From the NCBI RefSeq assembly GCF_037975245.1, contig NC_092571.1:2398501-2462500 (forward strand): a DNA stretch of 64,000 bases, read 5' to 3'. A program made the translations under genes and the position numbers. Positions within the stretch are counted from its first letter, which is position 1. Each line of letters opens with the position of its first letter. This DNA is from Apostichopus japonicus (lineage: Eukaryota; Echinodermata; Holothuroidea; Aspidochirotida; Stichopodidae). Below are positions 11,030-53,100 of this stretch, piece after piece. Below the pieces are notes generated by a model, which saw only the letters and a program-made list of their open reading frames with translations, had not been told where the DNA came from and did not search any database.

Positions 11030-12205
11030 TCAGAATCCTGGTAAATATTCTTTACTCGTCAATAGGCAGCTCATGACGTACGTCACTCCAAACAGTAGAT
11101 TCAGCTGCGCTGTTTTATATGGTAATAACTTCAGGTTACCTCTTCTGAATTCTTTCTCCAATTTGAAAGCGACAGTCAACGTCAAAAATGGCAAAAAGAA
11201 GGCTTTGGAAAAGTTCACTCCGAGAACGACGATGATAATGTAAGGTATAAATAGCAGGAAACAGAATAGAATGTAGGATGCCGTTGGTCCGAGCATAATG
11301 GCAACCGTCGTCACGTTCGCAGCCATATCATTTTCAGCATCTCGGCTGTTATTGGCATGCACAATAGCTTCAGTTATAAGCACCACTGGAATTGCATACC
11401 AAAACGGTAATAGTTTCAACAGTCCCGTTTGACAGATGAATGTAAACATCACTGCTACAGGTCCAAACGAAAGTATTATCACAATATCTCCGAACGCATG
11501 GTATTTTAAGCCGATGCCTCCCGTGTAAAGGAATGAGCCCGAAAGGCCACCAAAGAAGACAAGGGCTATGTGTTCAACACTGGCTTTGGACGTCAGACAA
11601 ATGCACAACACCGATGCACAACCTATGGCATAGAGGCATGCACCGAACGATGCAACTTCCTGCGGGGAAAGTTTCTGATCAACCAGCGTTCTATCGTCAC
11701 TTTTCTTGGAATCGATGCCTCTTTTGAAATCGTAATAAGTATTTACCAGATTTCCAGCTCCATGCACCGACAAAATTGCAATGGCGGTGAAAAAGAAGAC
11801 AAAAAGATTGACTTCATTAATCTCCTTGTACCCTAAAGCAGTACCAAGTAATAATGGAATGAGACTTGTGCTAAAGGACCAAGGTCTCAGGGCACTTAAA
11901 TAAGTTCTGGCAACATCTACAGTATTATATTCTTTACTGCATATTTCCAAAGCTTGACCGTCGATACATGAAGTTCTATGGACGTTAGAAATTGATCCAG
12001 ATGGACTCTCTATGCCACAGTTCTCCGAGCTTGGAACACTAGCGGTTATATAGTTATGCTGAAACTTTATCGCGCTACTGATACCTGTACAGGCTGTAGG
12101 CATTGATAAACCATTCAAGTCGGTACTAACGTTAGTACTTATTTGTAACGTTAGGTCCACCTCTGTAGGCCTATCCATGCTGGTAATTTCTTTACTGCCT
12201 TCCAT
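11030..12205 (-). CDS. UBIAD1: UbiA prenyltransferase domain-containing protein 1 (UBIAD1)
   Basis: The encoded protein is 391 residues. It is an integral ER/Golgi membrane prenyltransferase that in vertebrates adds a geranylgeranyl group to menadione to make menaquinone-4 (vitamin K2); a role in coenzyme Q synthesis has also been reported. The conserved domain starts near residue 101 (TYLSALRPWSFSTSL). The first aspartate-rich motif is HGAGNLVNTYYDF with GID and KKSDDRTLVD (residues 148-176). The FGGLSGSFLYTGGIG motif is at 218-232, and the second aspartate-rich motif NNSRDAEND is at 285-293. About eight hydrophobic segments lie between and after these. The first 100 residues are Ser/Thr-rich and not conserved; this leader is about 50 residues longer than in human (338 aa). 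I start at the ATG at 12205 because the earlier codon at 12214 is GTG and an in-frame TAG lies at 12226-12224. The stop TGA is followed directly by TAA. The coding region has no intron, while the human gene has two coding exons. Confidence 0.96.
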   Translation of the reverse strand: MEGSKEITSMDRPTEVDLTLQISTNVSTDLNGLSMPTACTGISSAIKFQHNYITASVPSSENCGIESPSGSISNVHRTSCIDGQALEICSKEYNTVDVARTYLSALRPWSFSTSLIPLLLGTALGYKEINEVNLFVFFFTAIAILSVHGAGNLVNTYYDFKRGIDSKKSDDRTLVDQKLSPQEVASFGACLYAIGCASVLCICLTSKASVEHIALVFFGGLSGSFLYTGGIGLKYHAFGDIVIILSFGPVAVMFTFICQTGLLKLLPFWYAIPVVLITEAIVHANNSRDAENDMAANVTTVAIMLGPTASYILFCFLLFIPYIIIVVLGVNFSKAFFLPFLTLTVAFKLEKEFRRGNLKLLPYKTAQLNLLFGVTYVMSCLLTSKEYLPGF

Positions 12206-12513
12206 AATTTTCACTTCTGTTTCCTATGATTTAAATTTGATATAAACCAACTGATTGTTGTTCACTTTTTAATTTGTCCAACGTTCTCAAATTTCCACAC
12301 ATGTTTGACATTTCAGTTCTCGTTGCTGATGTTTAGGTGCGGTGACTGGAATTTTTTTTCGATATCTGTTAGTCATGTTATCATTTAGATTCATACATTT
12401 CGATATAAGAAAAAATAAGTATCGTCTTTTAAAAGTTTAAGGTCAAGTTATTGAAAGCTATTAATTTAAATTGAAGAGAAATACATGTCTAATAGTTTTT
12501 ATAGTTTTTACTT

Positions 12514-12578
12514 AAAATGGCGGCCTCCAATGCCAATGATGAAATGATTTGTAATGACGTCATTGGTTTGTGACGCAA
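12514..12578. promoter_or_regulatory. Candidate UBIAD1 promoter, possibly bidirectional with MTOR
   Basis: About 310-370 bp upstream of the UBIAD1 start codon lies a cluster of core-promoter-type motifs. It has a YY1-like AAAATGGCGGCC (12514-12525), CCAAT boxes (12527-12531 and 12533-12537), a perfect palindromic CRE TGACGTCA (12555-12562) running into an inverted CCAAT (ATTGG, 12562-12566), and a further TGACGCAA (12571-12578). Such clusters typify promoters of housekeeping genes and divergent gene pairs. The motifs are seen; their activity and any role for MTOR are inferred. Confidence 0.6.
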
Positions 12579-15500
12579 TTTATTACTCACTTATGAAATT
12601 ATGGTGCGTTTTGTGATACGTGTGTGAACGAGCATCCTGTAGAGGAAGAACACATAACCATGAAATAAGGGGAGGGGGTTCTGACAATAGGACCTCGGTA
12701 CGTTACAGCAGTGTCCTCACAACGACCACAGATATGCTACGAAGAGCAGAACTAATCAACGATAGCAACAGTGGCGTGCGACGGATATCAAATTTGGGAG
12801 GGGAACTCTAAATTTACCCCTTATGACATATTTATATACTAATTTGTAGGACATAATTCTGTCTGGAAGGACCAGAGGCGAATTCATATGTTTGTGTATA
12901 ATAGATAGGTTGTGTGGGTTGAGGATTCAGATAGACGTTAACATTTCAAATGGTACGTTCTGAGGGATAGTAGGCCTATAATAATTAGTCTAAAAGCAAT
13001 GTGTTGCGCTTACAAATATTCCTGAAATGGTTGTGAGAGGTTTTACATCTTGAGGTCGTATTCTTCCCCGTGTTGGAATGTAACAGACCCTCCTTTTTGA
13101 CTAAGAAATGCAATTTAATGAGTGTTTCAATTAATGATTTAGAAAAAAATCTTTATAAAATGCTTGAAACTATGTCCAAACCTCTCTATTTTAACACATT
13201 CTGTTCACCTGTACTTTGATTCGTGCTCTTTGACATAGAGGCCGAAAAAAAGTCGCGGCTTTTGCTGAGTCCCGCCGTCATTGGTTAACCTTTCGAGAGG
13301 TTATACATAACTTTAAATGTGGGTACCACACCTGGAGTGGCGAAGATAGATATAACATATTTTGAATATTCGCATTTGAATAAATCACATCATTGCGGGA
13401 TAAATTGAGTTAAAGGAACGCGAAAAAAGAAATGCTTTCTCGACGTAACCCCGCCATGATCATACGATGTATGGAGACTTGGGTTGAGAGTAGACGGCCA
13501 AATTGTTCGTTTCGTGCATAGGCTCTCTATATGTTGGTGACATGTACTTAAACAAAACGAGTCAATTACATCGTTGTGAATAACGTATGCATCCGGGTTC
13601 CGTACACTGTATATTACTAACTCCATTTGGCGTTCCAAAGTATCCCACCATGTACTGGCGCAGCGAGGCGAATACATATCTACACTCATTAACTGTACTA
13701 TTATCTGTTGAATATTCAAATTTAAACCAATCATATCGTTGCAAGATAAACTGTGATAAATTCACGAGAAAAAGATGAATTTATGCGTTGTTCTAATACC
13801 TTTGAAGGTTTTAAAGACGTTTTTATCATTCTCCTGCAACCTAACACATTTGACTTTGCAATGAAAGTACTCACCAAAATTTTCGAGTGATTTCAACAAG
13901 TAAAACCTGACCGTTCCGTATTCACTGCGAATTAACTATTTTGCACATGTTATAAGAACTTCAAGTTAACCATTGTACATTCACTCTGAGTTCTTCACAA
14001 TACGCATAAATCTTTCGCCTTTTACTAAAGATTTCCGTGTGAAGGACTATATATGAGATTATCTCAATTTTTCTCAACCCTTCGAAAGAAGGGTACAAAA
14101 CGAACATAACAGTTACTTTTAAAGGTCACCTAACATTGTTGGATAGATAGATTTCCATGCATCATGCAAGTTGCAATGATTGTTAGGTCTAATCTAATTT
14201 CTTCTAAAGAATCAAATTTCTATTCTCCACACCAAAGACATCTTTAAATCATGATGAAAAGCATACGACCTCTGTATTAAGGACAGCTATGGTAGGGGGG
14301 GGGGGGTGGGGAGGTGTTGGATGGGGTAGCAGTCTTTCATGGGTATAGGTCATGTTGATAATAATAACAATAATATATCTCATGGAATCGTAGCCTCATT
14401 TTTCTCTTTGTAAGGCTGAAATTTGAATGAAGATATTTCTGAAACATCCAAATTACTTGCCAATCCCATTGTGGCCCTAACCTCGGTATCTTGCTTTTCA
14501 TTCCCATTCACTGTTACACCCCTTCCCCAAAACAAGTTTTCAGTAACATTTCGGTTCAAATTAAGTGAATTTTCCCTTCCTCCATAGCTGTTCTTCCTCC
14601 AAACTAAATTCATGTTGATATATACGAAAAACAACGTTCCGTGTCCTTGTTGTTTCATGTTAGTTTATAGCACTAACCGATCGGAATCGAGTTATTTTCT
14701 ACATCCTTGCATGATTATCCCTTAATTACTGTACTTCGTTCATATGTAGCACTGTTTCATTCTAAACTTGAACAGGTTACGGCAACAAGACTAGCACCAG
14801 TTCATTGCGTTGCGTTAACTTATCTTTGTTAATGTTCCATGCAAAGGTGTAGCGTTAGTATTTCTATTCCAACAAAGTACCATTTCGTGCCATTAATTGC
14901 AGTCTTTTTGCTGGAAAGTTAGGCCTATTTCATTCATGCGAGCAACTGCTTTCGTTTTAAGTAAGCCTAACGTTCCTCGTTAGGCCTAACCTAGTAGTAT
15001 GGCTAGTCTTGGCATACTCCACAGTGACGCTAGCTTAATTTAGGCCTAGCCTAAGCTATGTAGCATAACACTGAAAATGCTGTTGTCTGAAATAAAAATG
15101 TAATTGGTTTGTTGTGATGCAAGACAAACGTTTCTCTGGTTTTCCCTTAAGCAACCAGATCTTACTGATTTTGGTTGTTTGCACAGCAAACATGGTCTCA
15201 AAACATGTAACAAAATACATCAAAAAGATATCTCTAATATTACAGATCTATAGTCTAGCCTTTGCAATATATGTTACCAACATGCACATCAAGATTATTT
15301 GTATCTTGGCAGCAGTTTGACGAAACTCCGGACAATTTCCATGGCACTAGCCTTAAAAAGAAAAACATGCACCATACCAGCATGCAGTCCTCTTAAAAAG
15401 AGCGGAATGCTGCCGTAAAATGCTACAGTAAAATCATGAAATTTCATGAGATTGTCGTAAAAACTCTGGCTGACCAAATTAATAAGCTTGATGAAAGGAC

Positions 15501-16138
15501 ATCTGTGTAAACATGCATTTGGTTCTTGGAATTTACAAAATTATAACTGATTATTGTTTGTGTTTGCCCATGAGACCCTTGGATCAATGCCTTCTTGTAA
15601 AGTTGTATGTTGTAATTCATTATTGGTCAAGGGGTGTCATTGGCATTTAGTCAGAAAGCTGGACATTAGGGTTCTTGTTTCTTTCAAAGATAATATTGTA
15701 TTGATACCATCAAATATCTGTTGTTTCTTTTATTCAGCTAAGATGCACTGGAGATTTTAGCATGGAGGGTCCCAAATATGTTCACCTTAGCATTCATTGT
15801 CAGCTAGGTAACTGCTTTGATCGTAAAGTGTACATGCTAACCTGTGGTTACTCTGTATACATAATATTGTGGTTTGCTGTCAGAAACCACTTCCACACTG
15901 TTAATCGCAAGGATCCAGGCACAAAATATACTTGGGCAGTGCTTGGTAATTGCTAGGACACAAAGCTAAGGACAAAGAATTTTATCAGATTCATCATCAT
16001 TATTATACTTTAAAATAATTTTAAAATTTTATCTCACTATTTCGCTTTCTCAAATTGCAAATGCTTTCACATACCATGCGATTCATAAACCATTTGGATC
16101 AACTTCCATGTATTATTCTTTTTGCATCCCCCATTCAG
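12579..16138. other. Intergenic gap between UBIAD1 and MTOR; the MTOR leader exon probably lies here
   Basis: I see no coding region. MTOR translation starts in an exon that appears to have a splice acceptor (CCATTCAG, ending 16138) just ahead of it, so a noncoding first exon probably lies in this gap, as in vertebrates. I could not place it. A small CG-rich patch with an inverted CCAAT lies at 13237-13283. Two diverged direct repeats lie at 13361-13440 and 13707-13780, and a G run at 14296-14306. Confidence 0.5.
13361..13780. repeat. Diverged direct repeats about 345 bp apart
   Basis: The segments at 13361-13440 and 13707-13780 align in the same orientation. Both have TTGAATATTC, then ATCA-ATC-TTGC, GATAAA and a GAGAAAAAGA-like end. 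This could be a small tandem duplication or the ends of an old element. No coding potential lies between them. Confidence 0.5.
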
Positions 16139-16153
16139 ATGGTTATGATGTAA
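16139..16153 (+). promoter_or_regulatory. Possible 4-codon upstream ORF in the MTOR leader
   Basis: ATG GTT ATG ATG TAA lies directly after the inferred acceptor of exon 1 and ends 28 nt before the main ATG. If the exon boundary is right it would be present in the mRNA and could lower initiation at the main start. Confidence 0.35.
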
Positions 16154-16181
16154 GGAAAGCATTGGAGCGACTTTTCCAGCC

Positions 16182-16389
16182 ATGAGTCAGTTTATTGACG
16201 GCCTTAGAAGCCGTCACGAAGAATCCAGGACCAAAGCCGCCAAAGCTCTGCAGCACTATGTCACGACAGAGCTCAGAGAAGTGTCTGCCGATGAGCGGGC
16301 CTCTTTCATGGACGATCTCAACCATCACATATTCGAACTAGTTTCCAGCACGGATGTGAATGAAAAGAAGGGAGGGATTCTTGCCATCG
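16182..16389 (+). CDS. MTOR: MTOR coding exon 1 (residues 1-69)
   Basis: The start [20 protein letters not shown] aligns with the human segment after its leader. The ATG at 16182 has G at -3 and A at +4, and an in-frame TGA lies upstream at 16146-16148. The exon probably begins at 16139 after CCATTCAG, giving a 43-nt leader with an upstream ATG. It ends in phase 1 at CATCG|GTATGT. The 1417-bp intron that follows has a weak tRNA-like stretch (16936-16985), a C run near 17190 and a dispersed repeat at 17441-17695. Confidence 0.95.
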
Positions 16390-19300
16390 GTATGTATGTC
16401 ATTGGTAGAGTTCCATTCATGCATTTTGTTAGTAAAACTGTACTGTATGCACGTGGTAATCTGTGTATATATATAACAATGTGTAGGTAGTACTTTTACT
16501 TTGAAATGGACTCACTCCAGGGAATAATTTTTTAAGGTTCTGAAATTTGTCTCTTATAAAATAATACAGTTCATGTGTAAGAAAAAAGTGTGATACATTT
16601 TTGGATTTGTATAGCAATTTGACCATGTTATATAGCATTTTGTGATGATGCGATAATGGACAGACTAATTCATGCACTCGTTCAGGTGACACCTGTAAAG
16701 CACACATTTTGCAATTATGAATTTCGACATGATGTGGATAGATGATGAATTTCAGACCACAGTAAATTCTGATCATATTATTTCTTCTTAAACATTGATG
16801 AATTATATAATTGACGTCCATCCCATATGTTGACATCGTCAAACGATTTATCACTGTGTATAAGTGACACTGGTTGCAAAGTATGTTCAAAATGTTTAAA
16901 ATGTTACCATGACCATGGTGCAGTGAACTTAGGCTTGGCTTAGCGGTTAGAGGGTCCACCCCACAATTATTCCTGGACTCAAATTAGCACCAAGGGGCAG
17001 ATTCTCTTGACCTGTTCAACTTTGCAACTTTGTAGCTCTGTTGAGTGGAATCTTCCGTGGATTTGTTTTTTTCTGATTTTCGAATATTGGGAAATGGAGT
17101 TTTGGTTCTGTTCTTTAAATAGTTTGAAACTACCTACTTCATCATAGCTTCATTACAGTGATGATGAATGAGGTACCTTCCTCCTGCACCCCCCTCCCCC
17201 CCCCCTTCGCAATATTTGAGAAAGTGAACAGGTGCTGACATACACTCTTGTCTATGTCATTCGGACATTAACTAGCAGTCCAGGGTGCAGGAGTGGATGC
17301 AGTAATAACATGTCTGCCTCATATAGGACTCTCTGACTACTCATCGAAAGGAGAGGCTTGGCATCAGTCGGTGTGCATACATAATCATCGCATGGATATG
17401 GTTTGGAATGAGTTTTCTGTTGGTATCCTTACCCTTGGGGAAGATAATAATAATAATAATATTCCACTTTTATATAGCGCTTTATACCAGCAATAGGTCT
17501 CAATGCGCTTTACAGATGATATGTTACCCCTGGTCAATGATAACCTTTCCCAAAGACAATCCCTCCAGGCGGCTGCAGTTATATACTGTGCCCTATGACA
17601 AGTTACCTCACAGGTACTCATTTAACCCCTGGGTGGAGAGATGCAATTGAGATAAAGCATCTTACCCAAGGACACAACGTAGTGAACTAGATAATAAACT
17701 AAATGAAACATTTCATGGTGAGAGAGTACAGGTTGACATTGTACAGGTACTCAAACTGATGATCTATGCTTGAAACCCCCCTCTCGTTTCTCTCTGGCCT
17801 TAACAGTGAGTCTAATCGGCGCGGATGGAGACATCGCAACAAGAATCACCCGTTTTGCAAACTACCTGAGGAATTTACTCCCGTCCAGTGATGTCATCGT
17901 CATGGAGATGGCAGCTAAGGCCATGGGGCGACTGGCTCTGGCGGGGGGTACTTTTACACCCGAGTACGTGGAGTTTGAGGTCCGAAGGGCTCTGGAATAC
18001 CTGGGAGGAGATCGCCATGAAGGAAGAAGACACGCAGCGGTTAGTTTACCTTCCTTTTGCAATTTGAAGACTTTCGGATGAAATTTCTACCTTATTAATT
18101 AATTAATTAATTTTTTGTTTTATTGCAACATGTATGGCTTCTTCAGACTTTACATCAAATGATCAAAATTATAAATGTGTAATCTCTAAAATGCTATTAC
18201 TTTAGTTCAAATTGGTATCTTTTTGGGTATCAAAGTCGAGTTTGGTTGAAAAATTTAACTCGTTCTTTAATTTTTGCCATGAAAATGGCTGTTATGCTAC
18301 CGAAAAATATGAAAAGGAAAGAAAAGTGACTATCTCAGTACTTTTCAGTAAATATCTTGCGTCACTTCAATCATCGTTCATTAGGAAGTATGTTCATTAG
18401 TGCCATGTACTTTATAAATTTGTCATCCAGAATCATGAGACATGTGACATATTAAAAGCCAGTTTTGCAAAATAGGAAATGGTAGTGAGTACTGAGTTCA
18501 GCGGTTTGACTTATTTCCCCTTTTTTCTTCTCGAAATCTCAAACAGGTCTTGGTGCTGAGAGAGCTTGCAGAACATGCTCCAACATTCTTTTTCCAACAA
18601 GTCCAGCCTTTCTTTGACAACATCTTCAATGCAGTTAGAGATCCCAAGGTAAATTGGCATTTTTTTAAAAAATGTTATGATTAAATGTTCAGTTTATAGG
18701 GCAAATATCTCCCTTAAGCCCGGGTCACATCTGCGCGATTCAACACGCGATTCAACTCGCAACTAAAATCACGCGAATCAGAAAAGTTGCTTCTGAGAAG
18801 TTGCGCTGATTAGGACATTGCTCTATTGCAAATCAACCCAAATCGACGGCGCAACTTTTACGCGATTCAACCTTCAATTGTATTGCGAGTTGAATCGCGC
18901 GTTGAATCGCGCTGATGTGACCCGGGCTTTAGACAACCATGCCTCGTACCTTTTGGTTGTCCGGACAGCAAATTTGGTTTTCCTAAGAGATGCAGCAAAG
19001 CATTAGAGAAATGACCAATATGTTCACTATAGGAGAGATGTGTAGGTTTAAGTGAATAGAACACCAGCTTTGGGCCAGTCAAACTATCCTCCGGGTGGAT
19101 CATAGGCCTACCTCTATTTGGTTTTATTTCAGTATCTCCAAAGGTGATGAATGGGGCTACCAATTTTATCATTTTACATATCTACATTTTTTGTTAGTTA
19201 CAATAATTTGACAATAATTTGATGTAAACAACTAATCCTCCACAAGAAAACCTCCAAACAGAAATTTGGTCATCTCGGACAACTGGATGACCATTGTAAA

Positions 19301-23100: not shown

Positions 23101-26100
23101 TTTTATCGCGCGAGACACAGGCACTATCCAGCTAGCTAGTACACATACGGCCGTTAACCTTCGTAGCGGGTGAATTTACATCATATTGCATTAGGCACGA
23201 CCAGCGCACTCCGCCTCGTAGTGACTATACGTGACGGCTACACGAACTAGTCAGCCACGTGCACGGTGCATTGCTACTGCTTTCTAGTATACTTAATAGG
23301 CACCACCGGCTGGTCTGTACTCTGGTGCTCCAGATATTTGTCCTAACTTTTTTCATTAATTATGAAAAATTCCAGACATGAGATCTCATTTCAAAGCTAT
23401 CTAAATGTGGCTCAGAATACTCGGGAAGGGCCGTTTCCGGCCATCTGGGGGGTTTCCAAAACCCAAAATTTTCTTGTACGCTCCGCGCCAACTGATGGTG
23501 GCGCTCCGCTTAGATAGCCTGCCGGCACTCATTCCACCCTGGGCAGAACCCTGTTCATGGTATCTGTACTTTACCACATAGTGGGGAAATTCTGGTGGGG
23601 CATTTGACTGTGGTTTTGCTTGAAGCGTGTGGTACTTGATGGAAAGTTGAGTTTCACTAGACACATCATTACTTTCATTTGCTACTCCCTTTAGCAACCT
23701 TCTGGTGAAGTAGCCTGACCTAAGATCTGATAAGACAATATGTGGCATCTTTTGAAAGGAACCAAATTAAATGAAAAGCTCACTCGATAAAATGTCTTCA
23801 ATCAGACCTTTAATGTTGATAATCATTAACAGAAGACTTGGACGATCTTTCAAAGAAGGTAAATGTAGAAATTTTTACAAGTTTTCTGAATTTCTTCCAT
23901 TTTTTATCTCAATACATTACATGTATAGAGATATTGTAACAGTAAGTGGGACTCTCTCTTCTCTTAAAAATTTTTCAGCGTCTTCATATAAAGTTCTTTT
24001 TCTCTGGAATTTTCAGAGCAAGCATATATCATATAGGCCAACAAAAGTTACTATTTTCTATTTGAGAATTTTATCTCATTCTATGACTTTTTCACCGATT
24101 TATGTCCAAATTGGGCCAATTTGGACCGAAATACAGTTTAAACAACCCATTTTTGCACACGCTCCAAAACTTATGTTTTATGAAAGAGAATAGAATAGAA
24201 TTGTCTGTCAACAGTGGTATCGTCTAAGATAGGGTCCTATGTATTATATATTTTATTAACATTTTAAACTTTCATTTGTTGTTTACAGGTAGGTATTAAT
24301 AAGAATTTTACTAGCTGTATATGACATTTTATGGCTTTTATTTGCTTTATTTGATGTTTAAATGATTTTTCTTTCTTAAAACAATACTGAGCTGCCGCCC
24401 CTACTTTTAGTAAAAAGGTCCGTTTTTGATGAATAAGCCCCGCCCCCAAGTCTGTTTTGTAGCAGATTGGCTATGACTCATGGCAGCTACATGTTAGATA
24501 TACGAAAATGGCTACCCTCGCGACCAATTGTCTATACTGTAGTTAGGTACGCCAGGTGTAGTGTATTGCATGCTAATTATATATACAAATTCTGTACTGC
24601 TGAATTCTACGTAGTGCATTTAATTTATATTAGGCCTTCGTTTTTGTAACATCCATTTAAGGATAGTACTGGTGTTCAGGTAGCTTTTCAGAGCAAGGGC
24701 CATGATAAGTTTGTTTGATTGCCCTTCATGTATTTTGTATAATTACGTATACACATTCTTGTATTTCTGAAGGCTACTTACTGTAGGCCTACTGTAGGCC
24801 TAGTGCATTTAAAAAAATATATATATAGGCCTAGGCCTATTAGGCTTTCAGTGATAGCCACATTAGCATTGTACTGGTGTTCAGACAGCTTTTCCTAGGA
24901 AGGACCAGGGTAAGTTTGTTGATGGGTACGTATAAAAGAGGAGCCGGCCATAGCATCACAACTTTTATAAGACTATAAAAATTGTATAAGGTTATGTTTT
25001 ATTTATAAGGATATAAGATGTATAAGGTTATAAGAAGTATGATTAGCTTTCTTTTGAACCTGTAATGTTTGACATCAAATGTACAAAGAATTAAAATAAA
25101 ATAACAAAATGGAGAGGAACTGAGGTGGCTATTAGGGGAGGAGGAGGCCACCCATCACTTGCATATAAAAACTTGTAATCTTCTTTTACATTATTTTTTC
25201 CAAGTCATAAATCCATGAAATCTCCATGTAAGAAAAATTGAGATGGAAAAACGTGGGTTGTTTTGATATCTAGAAGTGGACACAGTTTTGATGGTAGTCA
25301 CCACTACAGTCTACAGTAACATACAGTAGGTCAATAGGCCTAGCTCTCAAGGCAGGCATCAAGAATATGGTCGAGTTGTTCGCCTCTTCTAATTTGGCCG
25401 TTGTCATTGACGTCAAACTATATGACCAAAAAGTCCAACAGAGACTGACCCAAGATGAAGGATACCACATAAAAAACAAGTTCTTAAATATTCTATGACA
25501 TTACTAAACCTTGCAACGTCGTTCTTTCGACTAACAGGCAATGAGTGCTAAAGGCAAGACTAGCAGGATAAAGTGTAACCTGCAGAGACTATTCGTGGCA
25601 AAGTAGCAAAAATGCAAGTTATATATTTGTTGTACCATGATTGATATTGATAATTGTAGAGACAGAGCAAAGATTTGAAATTAGGAATCAAAATTAAAAC
25701 TTCCAGTATTGAGATACTGCGTCATTGATGCTCTTGTTTTAGTTCCCTTTGATCTCGGGATTACACTTGTATCTAGATTTGAAAATACTCAGTGCTAAGG
25801 GGTTTACATCAAAGGCCTTTTTCACCGAACTTTTAAGGCAGTATGGCCTGACAACCTGAGAACAGTATTACATATTTCTAATATAAATATTATCTTATTT
25901 TTTGAATATTCAGACTTATCAGTAGAATCTCTGCACTTGTCCATGCTCAGTGATGTCTGCTGAAAAAGTTGAGCATAAAGACAGATAGGATCATATTTAA
26001 TATACAGAACTTGGTAGATGAGAGTACAGTAGTTATGTGCAGACAGGTAAACGTTGGCGTGTCGTAATCGATGCCGAACACTGCTTGATTTTACTAAAAC

Positions 26101-35100: not shown

Positions 35101-38100
35101 AGGGTAAAAAGCATCAGGGAATAGTCTCCGGTAGAGAAGCCTTGTTAGCAGCATTACATAGATTTCTGTCATTATCTTGGAAGTCTGTATAACCTACGTG
35201 TGGGATAATCCTAATATATTTGGTTCTCCTAAACTCTTGCAGGTCAGCGGAGTCGAGATGAGGAAGTGGATGGATGAGCTTCTCCCGATTCTCATTGACA
35301 TGCTTCAAGACTCATCATCGTTGAGCAAACGAGAGGCAAGTCTTTTCAAAGTTTTGTCTTACTTTGTACAGTTTTTTACAGAAAACTGTACAGAAAAAAC
35401 TGACACGTATAAGATCTGACACAGGCATATATCATAGAAATAGGCAATAATACAAAAAAAAGCACCCCCTCAGATTTGCCTATATGAAGCTATTAATTTG
35501 AGACAGAGCTTAGTTTAGTTCTGCAAAGATTGTCTTCTTCAGGTTTGCATAGGTTTTACATAGCAGTTACGATGTTAATGAATTTGTTCTACATGAAATA
35601 TTGAATTGTTAAGGTTCTTATGCAGATAGAGTATGTAGCAACAGTTGGACAATGTTTGTGATACCAGATACATTAGGCTGCGTCCATAGGTTTTACATAG
35701 CAGTTGTGATGTTAATGAATTTGCTCTACATGAAATATTGAAATGTTAAGGTTCCTATGCAGATAGAGTATGTAGTAGCAGTTGGATCATGTTTGTATTA
35801 CCAGATACATTAGGCTGCGTCCATAGGTTTTTCATAGCAGTTGTGATGTTAATGAATTTGTTCTACATGAAATATTGAATTGTTAAGGGTTCCTATGCAG
35901 ATAGAGTATGTAGTAGCAGTTGGACAATGTTTGTGATATCAGATACATTAGGCTGCGTCCATAGGTTTTTCATAGCAGTTGTGATGTTAATGAATTTGTT
36001 CTACATGAAATATTGAATTGTTAAGGGTTCCTATGCAGATAGAGCATGTAGTAGCAGTTGGACAATGTTTGTGATATCAGATACATTAGGCTGCGTGCAT
36101 AGATTCTACATAGCAGTTGTGATGTTAATGAATTTGTTCTACATGAAATATTGAATTGTTAAGGGTTCCTATGCAGATAGAGTATGTAGTAGCAGTTGGA
36201 CAATGTTTGTGATATCAGATACATTAGGCTGCGTGCATAGATTCTACATAGCAGTTGTGATGTTCCGGAAGTTGCTCTACATGAAATATTGAAATGTTAA
36301 GGTTCCTATGCAGATAGAGTATGTAGCAGCAGTTGGACTATGTTTGTGTTTTAACTGGATCTTCAGCAATGAAAAAAAAAACTTACAATTAAAGCAAGAA
36401 AAAGGTTAACTTCAATAATAATTCTGACTCTGATCCAAGTAAGACCTGAAAGATGATCATTTCTATGGCAACAAGTAATATTTTATTCTTGTTTTGTTTT
36501 CCCTTTTGACAGAATGCCCTCTGGACATTGTGTGAACTGGTGGAGAGCACTGGTTGTGTAGTGAAGCCATACAACAAGTATCCCAATCTGCTAGATTTAT
36601 TGCTGAACTTTCTGAAGACTGAACAGTCTCAAGTTCTGCGGAGAGAAGTAAGAAACACACAGTTATTTTATTGAAATTGGAGAGAATGTGCACAATCTTA
36701 AAGAAAGTGAGGGCATAGGGAGTAAATTTGTCGTAACTTAATGATTCAGTTAAGTGGCCAGAAATGCCACAATAGGAAAGCAGATTACTTTAATGCTTTG
36801 AATGATTGTCTTAGTGCAAAGTCATGTCCTAAATAGTTGATGTAAGTTCAAGTTATGTTAATTCACAGCGCGGCCAGACTTTATTGTAAGTTGTGCTAGA
36901 TAAGAACTGATAATTATTATTATAAGTTATTGAAAAGAATTTCAAACAATTCGTTGGCGTTTCCCAGTTTTCTTAAATGTTATGAATTAGGATACGGTTT
37001 GCTAAACCAATCTGAGTTTCGTATATATACAGTTGATATTTCACAAAACCGTTCAAACCAGGTATTTGTGTAAAACTCAAAGACCAATGAGAAAATTTTG
37101 TCTTCTCCTTCACGGATTTCCCTCAAATTCTCCATATGTCCGAAAACTTTCGTTTTCGTAGACAGATAGAGAAAAATGTGAATAGTAATTCAATACATTT
37201 GACATAATAAGACACAGTGATGAAATATATAGGTATACATGTATGTGAGTTATAATGTTAAAGGTTCAGTGTGTAATGACAACCAAATTTGCACACGGAG
37301 CAAAGTGTAGGTACTTTTGTGCGTAACTAAAAGATCATCTCTATCGTTTTGTAGACTATACGAGCCCTTGGTCTCCTCGGAGCTCTGGATCCTTACAAGC
37401 ACAAGATCAACCAAGGCAAGAAGGACAGCATGACCGACACAGCTGCTGCACTGAGTACCTCAGAGACCAAGACATCACAGGAAGGTAAGATGATGTCTCT
37501 GTAAAAAATATCACACGCACCCAAGCACTTGCTGGTTGCTGTTCGGTTTGGATCAGAGATGGTATCTGCTCAATTGGGAGATATGCCGTACTCAACTGGC
37601 TGTAAACGAACAGCCTTCGTCTATATCTATCTGGGGAGCACAAATTTAAGTTTATGAACAGATAGTGCTGCACGCTTTCTTTGGCAACACACTCAAAGCT
37701 TGTTCATTGATGATCTCTGAAGATAATGAAACCATTCTTTGCTCTCTGCACTTCCTTTATCCTCCTTTTGTCACCACCACTGGCATAGATTATCTCTCAT
37801 TCCCAAAGTTGATGTTGAAAAGTTGATAAGTTGATGTTGATTAGTTGATGTTGATAAATCTTTCTTTCAAAAAGTTGTCTGACAAAGGTCATCATCTCCT
37901 GTATGATCGCAAAAATACCATTTTCTCTATAAATTTCAAGATTTTCACGACTTGGTCTTCTCTGTTCCGATACTTGTATCTACAGCGAGTGAAATGCTGG
38001 TTACCCTCGGGAGTCCAAACCTGGAAGATTTCTACCCAGCAGTAGCGATATCAACCTTAATGCGGATCATGAAGGACCCCTCGCTGGCCAATCACCACAC

Positions 38101-41100
38101 AGGAGTCGTTCAAGCCATCACCTTCATCTTTAAGAGTCTCGGAGTCAAGTGCGTCCAGTTCTTACCACAGATCATGCCGACTTACATCTACGTCATCAGG
38201 ACCTGCGATCCAGGAATACGAGAGGTGAGGAATGTTTCAAATTGCCAACTTTATTTGTGGCTTCCAAATAATTAGGATAGATGGGAGTTGATTGTGCTAT
38301 GTGATAATGCTTCAGTGTTGTTGAATTTCATGTGTATAAACATTTGATTGATACTCCATAGAGTTATTAGGGCCTGTTTGATGTCAGACCTGGATCGAAA
38401 ACAGAACTCTGAGGTAAACATAGAATTGTAAGATGCAGTCCATGTGTGTACACAACTCTGAATTAGATTTTTGCACGTGCAATGATTAGGGGCTGGTGGG
38501 GGGGGGGAGGGTGGTGGTTGTTTCTATTTAGTATTATGAGTGTAAGTCACATATGACATCTACAAGTATTCTGTTTTCTTTTATTTTGTTTCTTCGTTTG
38601 TTCACAGTTTTTGTTTCAGCAGCTAGGAACAATCATTTCCATCGTTAAGCAGCACATCCGGAACTATTTGGATGATATTTTTGACCTAATCAGGGTAGGT
38701 GTTTCCTCGTCGTCATGTTTACAGGTGTCTTAAGTAATAATGAGAAGATGTGGAAATTCGTTAGTGTTGTTTCATGGACCAGAACGTTGCATAAAAGTTG
38801 AGAAGACAAAAATTTCATGTGAAGAAAGGGTTGATTTTGACAACAATTTAATCTTGTATCTGCCCTGTATTTGATAACTTTGATACTGTTTTGTTCTCTT
38901 TACATTGTAAGAACCCCCTAACTACACATCAAATTTACTGTTCAGTTGTACCCGTTATTGCACAGAAAATTTACTGTATGGTTGTAACTGCACGGTAAAT
39001 TTACTGTACGGTTGTAACTAGCAACTGCACAGCAAATTTACTGTACAGTTGTAACTGCACGATAAATTTATTGTACGGTTGTAACTACCCAGTAACTACA
39101 CGGTAGATTTACTGTATGGTTGTAACTACCCTGTAAATGTACAGTAAATTTACCGTACGGTTGTAAGGTTGTGGAGAAACAAGTAAATGCATGATTTTAT
39201 GTATAGTAAGTGCCTTTGTTATCACTAATTTTTTATATTATTTGTCCTTGACTTGAACACACTGTAAGAATTAAGTAGGAAGTTGGCGCCTCGTTTGAAA
39301 ATTCAGTTTTATCTCATCTTGACCTCACACATGCCATCAGTTCCCCTCAAATTCTTATTTTACCTATGGCATATGTGCCATGGCCTCTTTCAAAAATCAT
39401 TTCAAACCCCCTGGTGCTCTTTCATGCTTTTATTCTTTACTTTTTTCTTTTTCTTCTTTTTTCGGTATGGTAGGACTTTTGGACAGTTAATAGTCCTTTA
39501 CAGAACACCATTATTCTTCTGGTGGAGCAGTTAGTCGTGGCTCTGGGAGGAGAGTTCAAACTCTACCTGCCTCGAATCATCCCCATGATGCTGAAAGTGT
39601 TCATGCACGACCACAGCTCCAGCAAGACAGTGACTACAAAGGTAAAGTGTTGTAGGAATTGTAAGCGTATACGTAAGACGAAAGTTAGATAATAGTGTAA
39701 TGTAGTGGATCTGGCTCATGCATTAACTCAGTACAAAAAATATAAGTTTGATACACAGCTTGTAAATTGAAACACATTGATCCAACTCTGAACTTGATTG
39801 CGTATTCTGTTTTTGAGAAATTTGCAATATTGAAATATATTAATTTCATTTTGTGAAGGGTCCTCTTTTAAACCGGTGATGTCACAGATTTTCCTACTCC
39901 ATTGCTCCGTCATATCTGGAACTATATTCCAACTATCATCAGAGAGTATCTCTCCCCCCCCCCCTTCCCCCCACTGAGAACTCAAGAAATTGCTCAAAAC
40001 CTTAATGAGTCCAACAACATTACATAAAGTCTAATAAATTCAGTCAATTGTCTAAATGAATTCAGTAATAGTGTAATGTAGTGGATCTGGCTCATGCATT
40101 AACTCAGTACAAAAATAAATATAAATTTGATACGCAGCTTGTAAATTGAAACACATTGACGCAACTCTCAACTTTATCGCGTATTCTGTTTTTGAGAAAT
40201 TTGCAGCATTGAAATATATTTATTTCATTTTGTGAAGGGTCCTCTTTTTAACCTGTGATGTCACAGATTTTTCCACTTCGTTGCTTGGCATATCTGGAAC
40301 TGTATTCCAACTATCATCAGAGAGTATTTCCCCCTCCCCCTCCCCCCACTGCATCAGAGAGTATCTCCCCCTCCCCCCACTGAGAACTCAAGAAATTGCT
40401 CAAACTTTAAAGAGTCCAACAACATTACATAAAGTCTAATACATTCAGTCAATTGTCTAAATTCAGTCAATTGTCTAAATATATTCAGTAAATTCAGTAA
40501 AATTGACCCATGCATTTTCTGCTAAATTTTCCCAAGTGTAATCCAAGTATAAGTGCCATTTTTGTATCAAGTAAAATTTAACCATCGATATTTTTCTCTT
40601 TTGTTATTAAGCTTCTCAACGGTGTACAGCGATTTGGCCCTAACCTTGATGATTATATGCATCTTCTACTCCCTCCCATTGTCAAACTGTTTGACTCCTC
40701 GGAGGTCCCGCTTCCTGTTAGAAAGTAAGTTTGAACGACACTGTCCGTTTTTTTTTGTGAAGCATACCCCTCTCACCACTTGAATACTTATTTTGTGATG
40801 TCCCACCATCCTTTCATGAATTGGACAAATTTATAACTCAAATCTTTGTTTTCCTTTAAACTTGTGGGAATTAAGTTGATTTTCAATTATTTTATTGCTA
40901 CTGAAACTGAACTGGTCAGCCAGCCAAACATAGAACACTTGATTTATGATATAGCCTACTCATTTTGGTTTGATAAGAAATGTTGAGATGTTTTTTTTTA
41001 TAAAAATTCTTTTACACAGGAAAGTGAAAAAGAAATGGTGGTTTAGTTATTAAAATTCCCACAAGTGAAATGCTTTGTAATATTGACCTTTGTGTAATTG

Positions 41101-50100: not shown

Positions 50101-53100
50101 TGCTCGTTCTTGAGTTAACAACAATGGTTATTAAAATGTTTGTTAGCTGGTCTCTTGACCTTTGGAGTTCAATGCATGCTCTTTAATTGGTCTCTCATCA
50201 CGGCCAGAGGAAGTTTTTAAGCCGCGCTAATTCGTCTGAGATTGGCTATAACTTTCACATTAATTACATTGGCATTAGGTGTGTCTATTTAAGAAGCTCT
50301 CACCCTTATCCTTTGGTGTGATAGGCAGACAGGATTTCCTCTGTAGTTATTCATGACTCTCTAAACAAATCAAGATGATTCAGTTTCATAATTTACAAAA
50401 AAACAAAAATGGATCATTAAGGGTTTATAGGCAATTGTAAAACTGATGTTTTGGCAGCGAGCCTTCGTGGTGTTTTTATTTGGCATTGGGAGTTAGACTA
50501 CAGTATGCTTACATGCCACATGGCCTATGTTCCCTGCTCAATGCCATGCATATGATTCATAAATTTACTAGAAGACCATATTTCAAAGAGAGACATATTA
50601 TAATGTTCAAAACCACATTTTCCAACCAGAGTCAGGTTTGACCTTATCAAACTAAGACTTTGAATTCTGGAATTCTGCTGTAAACATCTCAATTGGTTTT
50701 CAGTGGTCTTCACCATAAACATTTGGGGGGGGGGGGGTGGGTTGGGGGGGCAAGACTGACAACCTTTTAAAAAACAGTGTAAGATTTCTGTTATTACCAG
50801 AAGCCCCTATATAGCCATTCTGCCTTCTTAGCCAGGTCATATGGTTCTGTTTGTCATGTTGCTGCTAACAGGACATTCCACCTCACCTCCCCTCCCCCTT
50901 TGTTCCCCCGTTTCCCCCTCGCTTACCGCGCCCTGAAAGGTTGAAAATCTTGCCTAATTACAACGTATTACACTGAATCTCACACACTGTTTTGGTAATG
51001 CTTCCATGGTTCAATGTGTGTAAGATTTGTTGCCATGGTGATCTGGATATCTATTCTCATTTTCATATTCATCTTCTTCTTACTCTCTGGTTTATTACTT
51101 TCTTTCCTCAGGGATGCAAACAGAGCGTGGAGGACTGGCAGAAGATTATTCACGTGAGATCGTTGGTCATCCAACCGCAGGAAGACCTCAGAACTTGGCT
51201 CAAGTTTGCCAGTCTGTGTCGAAAGTCCGGAAAGATGGTAAGGAACGCTTCATCTCAAGATGAAATGTCACCAAATTTGTTTTCAAATTTTTCTCACCAT
51301 TTCACACAAAAGTCACGAATAAAGTACCTTTTTCTTATCAAGTATCTCTTCGTTTGGATGTTGCAGTGTGTTTGGGATAAACAGACCTTTTAAATCACTA
51401 GAACCAGGACCAATAGAAGACTAGTTTTAAAGAAATTATTTATGAACAGTGTTATGCATAACAGGATATTAAATTCAAAGATTAAAGCCAGCTGGTTTGA
51501 TCATCAGCAGGACCACACTGTGGTAATGTTTACCCGTACAGAATGACTTTAGAAAGGAAGTTATTTGTTGATATGTCATAGTCTAACCAACTATTTTATT
51601 TGTTTATTCCTTTCATAGTCTAACCAACTATTTTATTTGTTTATTCCTTTCATAGTCTAACCAAACTATTTTATTTGTTCATATGTCATTGTCTAACCAA
51701 CTATTTTATTTGTTTATATGTCATAGTCTAACCAAACTATTTTATTTGTTTACATGCCATAGTCTAACCAACTATTTTATTTGTTTATATGTCATAGTCT
51801 AACCAACTATTTTATTTGTTTATATGAACTATTTTATTTGTTCATATGCCATAGTCTAACCAACTATTTTATTTGTTTATATGTCATTGTCTAACCAACT
51901 ATTTTATTTGTTTACATGCCATAGTCTAACCAACTATTTTATTTGTTTATATGTCATTGTCTAACCAACTATTTTATTTGTTTATATGTCATAGTCTAAC
52001 CAAACTATTTTATTTGTTTACATGCCATAGTCTAACCAACTATTTTATTTGTTTATATGTCATAGTCTAACCAACTATTTTATTTGTTTATATGAACTAT
52101 TTTATTTGTTCATATGCCATAGTCTAACCAACTATTTTATTTGTTTATATGTCATTGTCTAACCAACTATTTTATTTGTTTACATGCCATAGTCTAACCA
52201 ACTATTTTATTTGTTTATATGTCATTGTCTAACCAACTATTTTATTTGTTTATATGTCATAGTCTAACCAACTATTTTATTTGTTTATATGTCATAGTCT
52301 AACCAAACTATTTTATTTGTTTATATGTCAAAGTCTAACCAAACTATTTTATTTGTTCATATGTCATAGCCTAACCAACTATTTTATTTGTTTATATGTC
52401 ATAGTCTAACCAAACTATTTTATTTGTTTATATGTCATTGTCTAACCAACTATTTTATTTGTTTATATGTCATAGTCTAACCAACTATTTTATTTGTTTA
52501 CATGCCATAGTCTAACCAAACTATTTTATTTGTTTATATGTCATTGTCTAACCAACTATTTTATTTGTTTATGTGTCATAGTCTAACCAACTATTTTATT
52601 TGTTTACATGCCATAGTCTAACCAAACTATTTTATTTGTTTATATGTCATTGTCTAACCAACTATTTTATTTGTTTATGTGTCATAGTCTAACCAACTAT
52701 TTTATTTGTTTACATGCCATAGTCTAACCAACTATTTTATTGGTTTTATATGTCATAGTCTAACCAAACTATTTTATTTGTTTATTTGTCAAAGTCTAAC
52801 CAAACTATTTTATTTGTTCATATGTCATAGTCTAACTAACTATGTTATTTGTTTATATGTCATAGTCTAACCAACTATTTTATTTGTTTACATGCCATAG
52901 TCTAACCAAACTATTTTATTGGTTTATATGTCATAGTCTAACCAAACTATTTTATTTGTTTATATGTCAAAGTCTAACCAAACTATTTTATTTGTTCATA
53001 TGTCATTGTCTAACCAACTATTTTATTTGTTTATATGTCATAGTCTAACCAACTATTTTATTTGTTTACATGCCATAGTCTAACCAACTATTTTATTTGT

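Follow-up and report, generated by a model that had tools for sequence, protein, structure and literature searches.

A divergent UBIAD1–MTOR gene pair in the sea cucumber Apostichopus japonicus, probably inherited, with a U5 snRNA gene in its interval

A 64,000-nucleotide stretch of chromosome C11 of the sea cucumber Apostichopus japonicus (C11:2398501-2462500, hereafter the window; genome of 671.58 Mb in 35 contigs) carries UBIAD1, which is linked to vitamin K and sterols, and the growth-control gene MTOR as neighbours. The two genes are transcribed away from each other, with 3,976 bases between their start codons (12206-16181; positions without a contig prefix are those of the window). An earlier note on this DNA had placed UBIAD1 on the minus strand from 12205 and MTOR on the plus strand from 16182, 4.0 kb apart and divergent, which was borne out; the note had overlooked that the interval is not empty and contains a U5 small nuclear RNA (snRNA) gene. 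We consider it probable that the adjacency of UBIAD1 and MTOR is inherited and has been kept by the compact 5′ interval between them, a reading that overlaps with neutral survival of the pair, with which it shares the inheritance part.

The two genes and their human counterparts

The UBIAD1 open frame extends over 11030-12223 on the minus strand, with the ATG at 12205 and the stop codon at 11032-11030. Its product is a UbiA prenyltransferase (Pfam, E 4.9e-37), and the one PDB sequence that it matched at E <=0.001 was UBIAD1 itself (E 4.1e-98, residues 100-389), with 152 of 290 aligned residues identical and the first 99 residues lying outside the match. Among bacterial family models, the MenA-type scored best, at values below the curated cut-offs. 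Both Asp-rich prenyltransferase motifs are present and aligned to PDB UBIAD1, namely NLVNTYYDFKRGID and NNSRDAEND, the general forms of which we take to be NxxxDxxxD and NNxRDxxxD, respectively. The genome search yielded three UbiA-family genes: this one on C11, one of COX10 type on C19 and one of COQ2 type on C14 (typing covered four of the five other exon matches; L004, which contains a stop, was omitted). An identity as COQ2 or COX10 was ruled out, since those types lie on C14 and C19. The gene on C11 was the sole UBIAD1 copy found in the genome search, and an intronless retrocopy was also ruled out, as no intron-bearing UBIAD1 was found and the position matches that in human.

Spliced together, the first three MTOR coding exons encode 181 amino acids, which match mTOR at E 2.5e-85 with 137 of 180 aligned residues identical. 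N-terminal HEAT sequence, mTOR_dom, FAT, FRB and PI3K-like kinase follow one another on one strand; the FRB domain (C11:2491604-2492218, with no other FRB in the genome) and a kinase exon near C11:2504320 lie past the window end. The last exon that we recognised by eye, at C11:2508783-2508890, resembles the penultimate exon and puts the length of the gene at 94 kb or more. A pattern search of a 264-kb region gave no C-terminal FATC exon. MTOR was found in a single copy in the genome. Judged by sequence, UBIAD1 and MTOR of this window are true, clear orthologues of the human genes.

The earlier note had claimed the same divergent pair in human 1p36.22. Of that claim, the orientation of MTOR found support in a published account; human UBIAD1 we take to run opposite to MTOR. 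The two genes are neighbours there as well. PMC5302868 gives the distance of the MTOR promoter single-nucleotide polymorphism rs2295080 as 10,651 bp to UBIAD1 and 66,590 bp to ANGPTL7, and places the latter within intron 28 of MTOR; the 5′ end of human MTOR therefore faces UBIAD1, as it does in the sea cucumber. PMC1925147 names UBIAD1, FRAP1 (MTOR) and ANGPTL7 together within one human interval. PMC5237311 compares the block among vertebrates and notes its similarity to amphioxus scaffold_150; a figure legend there names TARDBP, MASP2, SRM, EXOSC10, MTOR and UBIAD1.

The search gave an answer for four human 1p36.22 neighbours, EXOSC10, TARDBP, SRM and MTHFR, and all four are on C11, like the UBIAD1–MTOR pair. 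MTHFR and PGD we take to be further genes of 1p36.22. EXOSC10 is at 25.29 Mb, about 23 Mb from MTOR; TARDBP is at 17.96 Mb (from its N-terminal domain alone), MTHFR is at 18.51 Mb, and SRM is at 8.00, 11.76 and 22.74 Mb, with both of the loci tested among these three being spermidine synthase. With C11 measuring 28.43 Mb (4.2% of the genome), finding four of four neighbours there by chance would have a probability of about 3e-6 if they were independent, a figure that is too small because SRM has three loci and because MTHFR and TARDBP lie about 0.55 Mb apart and are perhaps not independent. Because all four answered neighbours are on C11, we infer that C11 and human 1p36.22 go back to one ancestral linkage group whose local order is largely scrambled: TARDBP, SRM and EXOSC10 are megabases from the pair in the sea cucumber, unlike in human, though on the same chromosome. 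The pair seems to be a compact remnant of this old linkage group. The suggestion that it represents old, retained microsynteny is thus supported by the clear orthologues, by a divergent order that fits human and by the shared chromosome of the four neighbours.

Chance adjacency is unlikely. With the 19,828 genes given for the A. japonicus assembly in PMC10344927, the probability of adjacency in this orientation is 1/19,827 x 1/2, or about 2.5e-5, genome-wide, and about 6e-4 if both genes are placed on C11, for which its length suggests about 840 genes. Adjacency and orientation agree between two distant phyla, with human UBIAD1 taken to run opposite to MTOR as above. That UBIAD1 and MTOR were joined independently in sea cucumbers and vertebrates, an idea left some room by a comparison that covers two lineages only, seems extremely unlikely, given the second of these probabilities and the fact that UBIAD1 is not a relocated extra copy.

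Table 1. Positions of the UBIAD1, U5 and MTOR features in the window
Feature	Positions	Strand	Basis
UBIAD1 coding sequence	11030..12205	minus	single exon, 391 amino acids, stop codon included
Promoter-type motif cluster	12514..12566	.	consensus matches only
U5 spliceosomal snRNA gene, full length	13981..14095	plus	Rfam RF00020, 96.5 bits, model 1-117
End of MTOR 5′ untranslated region within first coding exon	16139..16181	plus	read from sequence
MTOR first coding exon	16182..16389	plus	spliced translation matches mTOR
MTOR second coding exon	17807..18039	plus	spliced translation matches mTOR
MTOR third coding exon	18547..18648	plus	spliced translation matches mTOR
Open frame with MTOR exon, mTOR_dom (PF11865)	37907..38272	plus	E 1.7e-28
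Open frame with MTOR exon, FAT domain piece (PF02259)	50977..51390	plus	E 2.5e-13

The interval between the start codons

The U5 gene lies well above the RF00020 gathering score of 40. Its loop and its Sm-site stretch, which we take to be the conserved loop and the Sm site of U5, match the consensus; its stems contain two non-standard pairs, and the other changes preserve pairing. U5 was the only Rfam family to attain its gathering score across the window, 140 kb of flanking sequence and 60 kb more. Genome-wide, at least 43 U5 matches were found, a lower bound in that scoring covered 47 of the 54,183 first-look candidates; of those listed, 39 are on C11, with three more on C13 and a single one on C19. 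The C11 matches comprise a tandem array of 36 at 4.44-4.47 Mb (C11:4443518-4465623, unit of about 623 bp), two at 16.13 Mb (C11:16127839-16128609) and the copy between UBIAD1 and MTOR, which scores second of the 43 listed, above the array copies. Among the matches listed, U5 genes are therefore concentrated on chromosome C11. The copy in the interval would be a separate transcription unit, either ancestral at this place or derived from the U5 cluster in another part of C11. The human U5 gene RNU5E-1 presumably also maps to 1p36.22, a location on which a literature search found nothing. Conserved neighbours are thus not necessarily empty of other genes, as the U5 gene occupies the gap between UBIAD1 and MTOR. 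A repeat check found no second copy of the interval within the 264-kb region, and the U5 gene alone was compared genome-wide.

On the UBIAD1 side of the U5 gene, some 310-360 bp ahead of the UBIAD1 start codon, is a cluster of motifs comprising a YY1-like site, AANATGGCGGC (12514), a palindromic CRE, TGACGTCA (12555-12562), CCAAT at 12527 and 12533 and an inverted CCAAT at 12562-12566. The YY1-like site is the only full one in the window, and across the 264-kb region the cluster contains the sole YY1–CRE pair within 100 bp. Under a simple model, that region has two YY1 sites where 0.16 are expected and 15 CRE sites where 2.25 are expected. The cluster is suggestive of a candidate core promoter of UBIAD1, for which this would be the natural place, and perhaps of MTOR too.

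Upstream of the MTOR ATG, we found an in-frame TGA (16146-16148) and a putative splice acceptor AG (16137-16138), and a non-coding MTOR exon further upstream is therefore implied and very likely present. With such an exon, the transcript starts of UBIAD1 and MTOR would lie less than 4 kb apart. Splice-site scoring for this first exon was ambiguous, with donors at 12953, 15808, 14292, 12604 and 14961 all outscoring the known donor at 16390.

Inheritance, chance survival and co-regulation

We propose that the common ancestor with vertebrates would already have carried UBIAD1 and MTOR side by side, and that local order was later scrambled within the ancestral linkage group while this pair stayed together. 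Both promoters would be drawn from one compact 5′ interval of less than 4 kb, so that breaks there would rarely be tolerated, on a chromosome that would rarely trade genes with others; this account does not require shared physiology. A shared metabolic purpose of UBIAD1 and MTOR is likewise not needed to explain the pair. The earlier note had speculated about a metabolic link between the two, and the titles and abstract openings of 12 of the 34 papers on UBIAD1 with mTORC1 gave no support for one.

Neutral survival would account for the pair without any role for the interval: an old linkage group that slowly exchanges genes with other chromosomes would have retained UBIAD1 and MTOR unbroken by luck. 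Macrosynteny that is kept while local order is scrambled fits this, as does a spacing that differs from the published human distance. EXOSC10, on the other hand, is a close neighbour of MTOR in human and lies about 23 Mb away here, so breaks have been common in this linkage group and the gap between UBIAD1 and MTOR has been spared. We regard neutral survival as possible, if somewhat unlikely.

Co-regulation of the two genes from a bidirectional promoter is improbable. The YY1/CRE/CCAAT cluster would drive UBIAD1 leftward and a non-coding MTOR exon rightward, linking quinone and sterol prenylation to nutrient signalling; the uniqueness of the YY1–CRE pair and the implied upstream MTOR exon are consistent with such an arrangement. 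Against it, the candidate MTOR 5′ splice sites are ambiguous, and the U5 gene would fall in MTOR intron 1. In a bidirectional promoter pair, the two transcript starts are by definition less than about 1 kb from each other. No UBIAD1–mTORC1 link appeared among those 12 literature titles, and a literature search on a bidirectional UBIAD1 promoter was empty. A broader version, in which UBIAD1, U5 and MTOR would form an old deuterostome cis unit with the YY1/CRE/CCAAT core driving both protein-coding genes and U5 inside, strikes us as very unlikely. If it were true, quinone- and sterol-linked prenylation, growth signalling and splicing capacity would share one regulatory neighbourhood.

Several observations weigh against inheritance through a compact interval. 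The spacing of MTOR and UBIAD1 is not conserved with human, where the gap is about 10.65 kb by the published distance as opposed to 4.0 kb in the sea cucumber, and in the latter the U5 gene lies in the gap and splits the interval. The age of the pair rests on two lineages, human (from a paper) and sea cucumber. Sixteen patterns were tried in the motif search, and the simple model understates chance, so the matches in the cluster are weak. As for the linkage group, the family used to search for EXOSC10 also matches genes on C1 (twice) and C17 (once), the second EXOSC10 domain (PF08066) had no match in the genome or in control genomes and is uninformative, and the spermidine synthase family has a weak single-exon match on C21. 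We nevertheless favour inheritance of the pair with retention through its 5′ interval.

Surroundings of the pair and its place among ancient gene pairs

The nearest genes recognised on the UBIAD1 side are two of Hairy/Hes type on the minus strand, at C11:2384159-2385391 (L010:5659-6891) and C11:2348015-2349478 (L013/L014); one of these Hairy-orange (Hes-like) genes ends in WRPW. Beyond MTOR are SRP68, PCLAF and a USP5-like gene. Flanking open frames were sampled only for Pfam, and further genes may be present. The flanks found, with the Hes genes on one side and SRP68 and PCLAF on the other, differ from the human ones, and the MTOR–UBIAD1 pair has therefore outlasted its surroundings. Strict patterns for EXOSC10, SRM, TARDBP and UBE4 were empty in the 264-kb region, a weak result given that the FATC pattern was empty as well. 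An extended conserved block directly beside the pair was not found, with EXOSC10, TARDBP and SRM lying elsewhere on C11.

MTOR itself houses another gene. A C1q/collagen gene consisting of one open frame (C11:2468315-2469109; L017:5815-6609, minus) is nested in MTOR in antisense orientation, within the stretch separating the exons for FAT from those for FRB. Human MTOR likewise contains a gene for a probably secreted protein, ANGPTL7, which we take to be on the strand opposite to MTOR. The nested genes belong to different families, and homology between them was ruled out, the sea cucumber gene being C1q plus collagen. The nesting may be a coincidence.

Further observations concern C11 and the assembly. 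Two spermidine synthase gene sets, at C11:7998995-8013667 and C11:11751395-11765645, have near-equal scores and similar exon spacing at a distance of 3.75 Mb, and they reflect either segmental duplication or duplication in the assembly. Open frames at 23771-24190 and L024:5098-5502, which lie on opposite strands and are separated by about 115 kb, share a 15-residue peptide and are probably a dispersed repeat. The mitochondrial contig C35 has a COX1 frame that, translated with the echinoderm table, stays open when TGA codes for Trp; judged from its frames and tRNAs, its gene order (COX1, ND4L, COX2, ATP8, ATP6, COX3, ND3, ND4, ND5, ND6 reversed, CYTB) is the one known from sea urchins and sea cucumbers. 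Several mitochondrial COX1-like pieces occur at C29:14745-31219, either as a nuclear copy or as a second, misassembled mitochondrial sequence.

Echinoderms and chordates split more than 500 million years ago. Like ancient conserved microsyntenic pairs and genomic regulatory blocks, MTOR and UBIAD1 would be two unrelated genes that have stayed adjacent for longer than that. The usual targets in genomic regulatory blocks are developmental regulators, whereas neither MTOR nor UBIAD1 is one. Ancient conserved microsyntenic gene pairs of animals were reportedly described by Irimia et al. in 2012. Such pairs are already known, and MTOR–UBIAD1 is one more data point and no new kind of system. The echinoderm–chordate date given in PMC13317027 is the same, and the text examined of that paper does not name mTOR; the main text of PMC8851819 on ancient gene neighbourhoods names neither MTOR nor UBIAD1. 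Literature searches on UBIAD1 with synteny or microsynteny found no report of the pair in an echinoderm, most subscription papers lying outside their reach. A pair that has probably stayed adjacent since the echinoderm–vertebrate split, while its other neighbours were scattered, is a natural place to seek constraint on the 5′ region of MTOR, and such constraint would be relevant to how MTOR expression is set.

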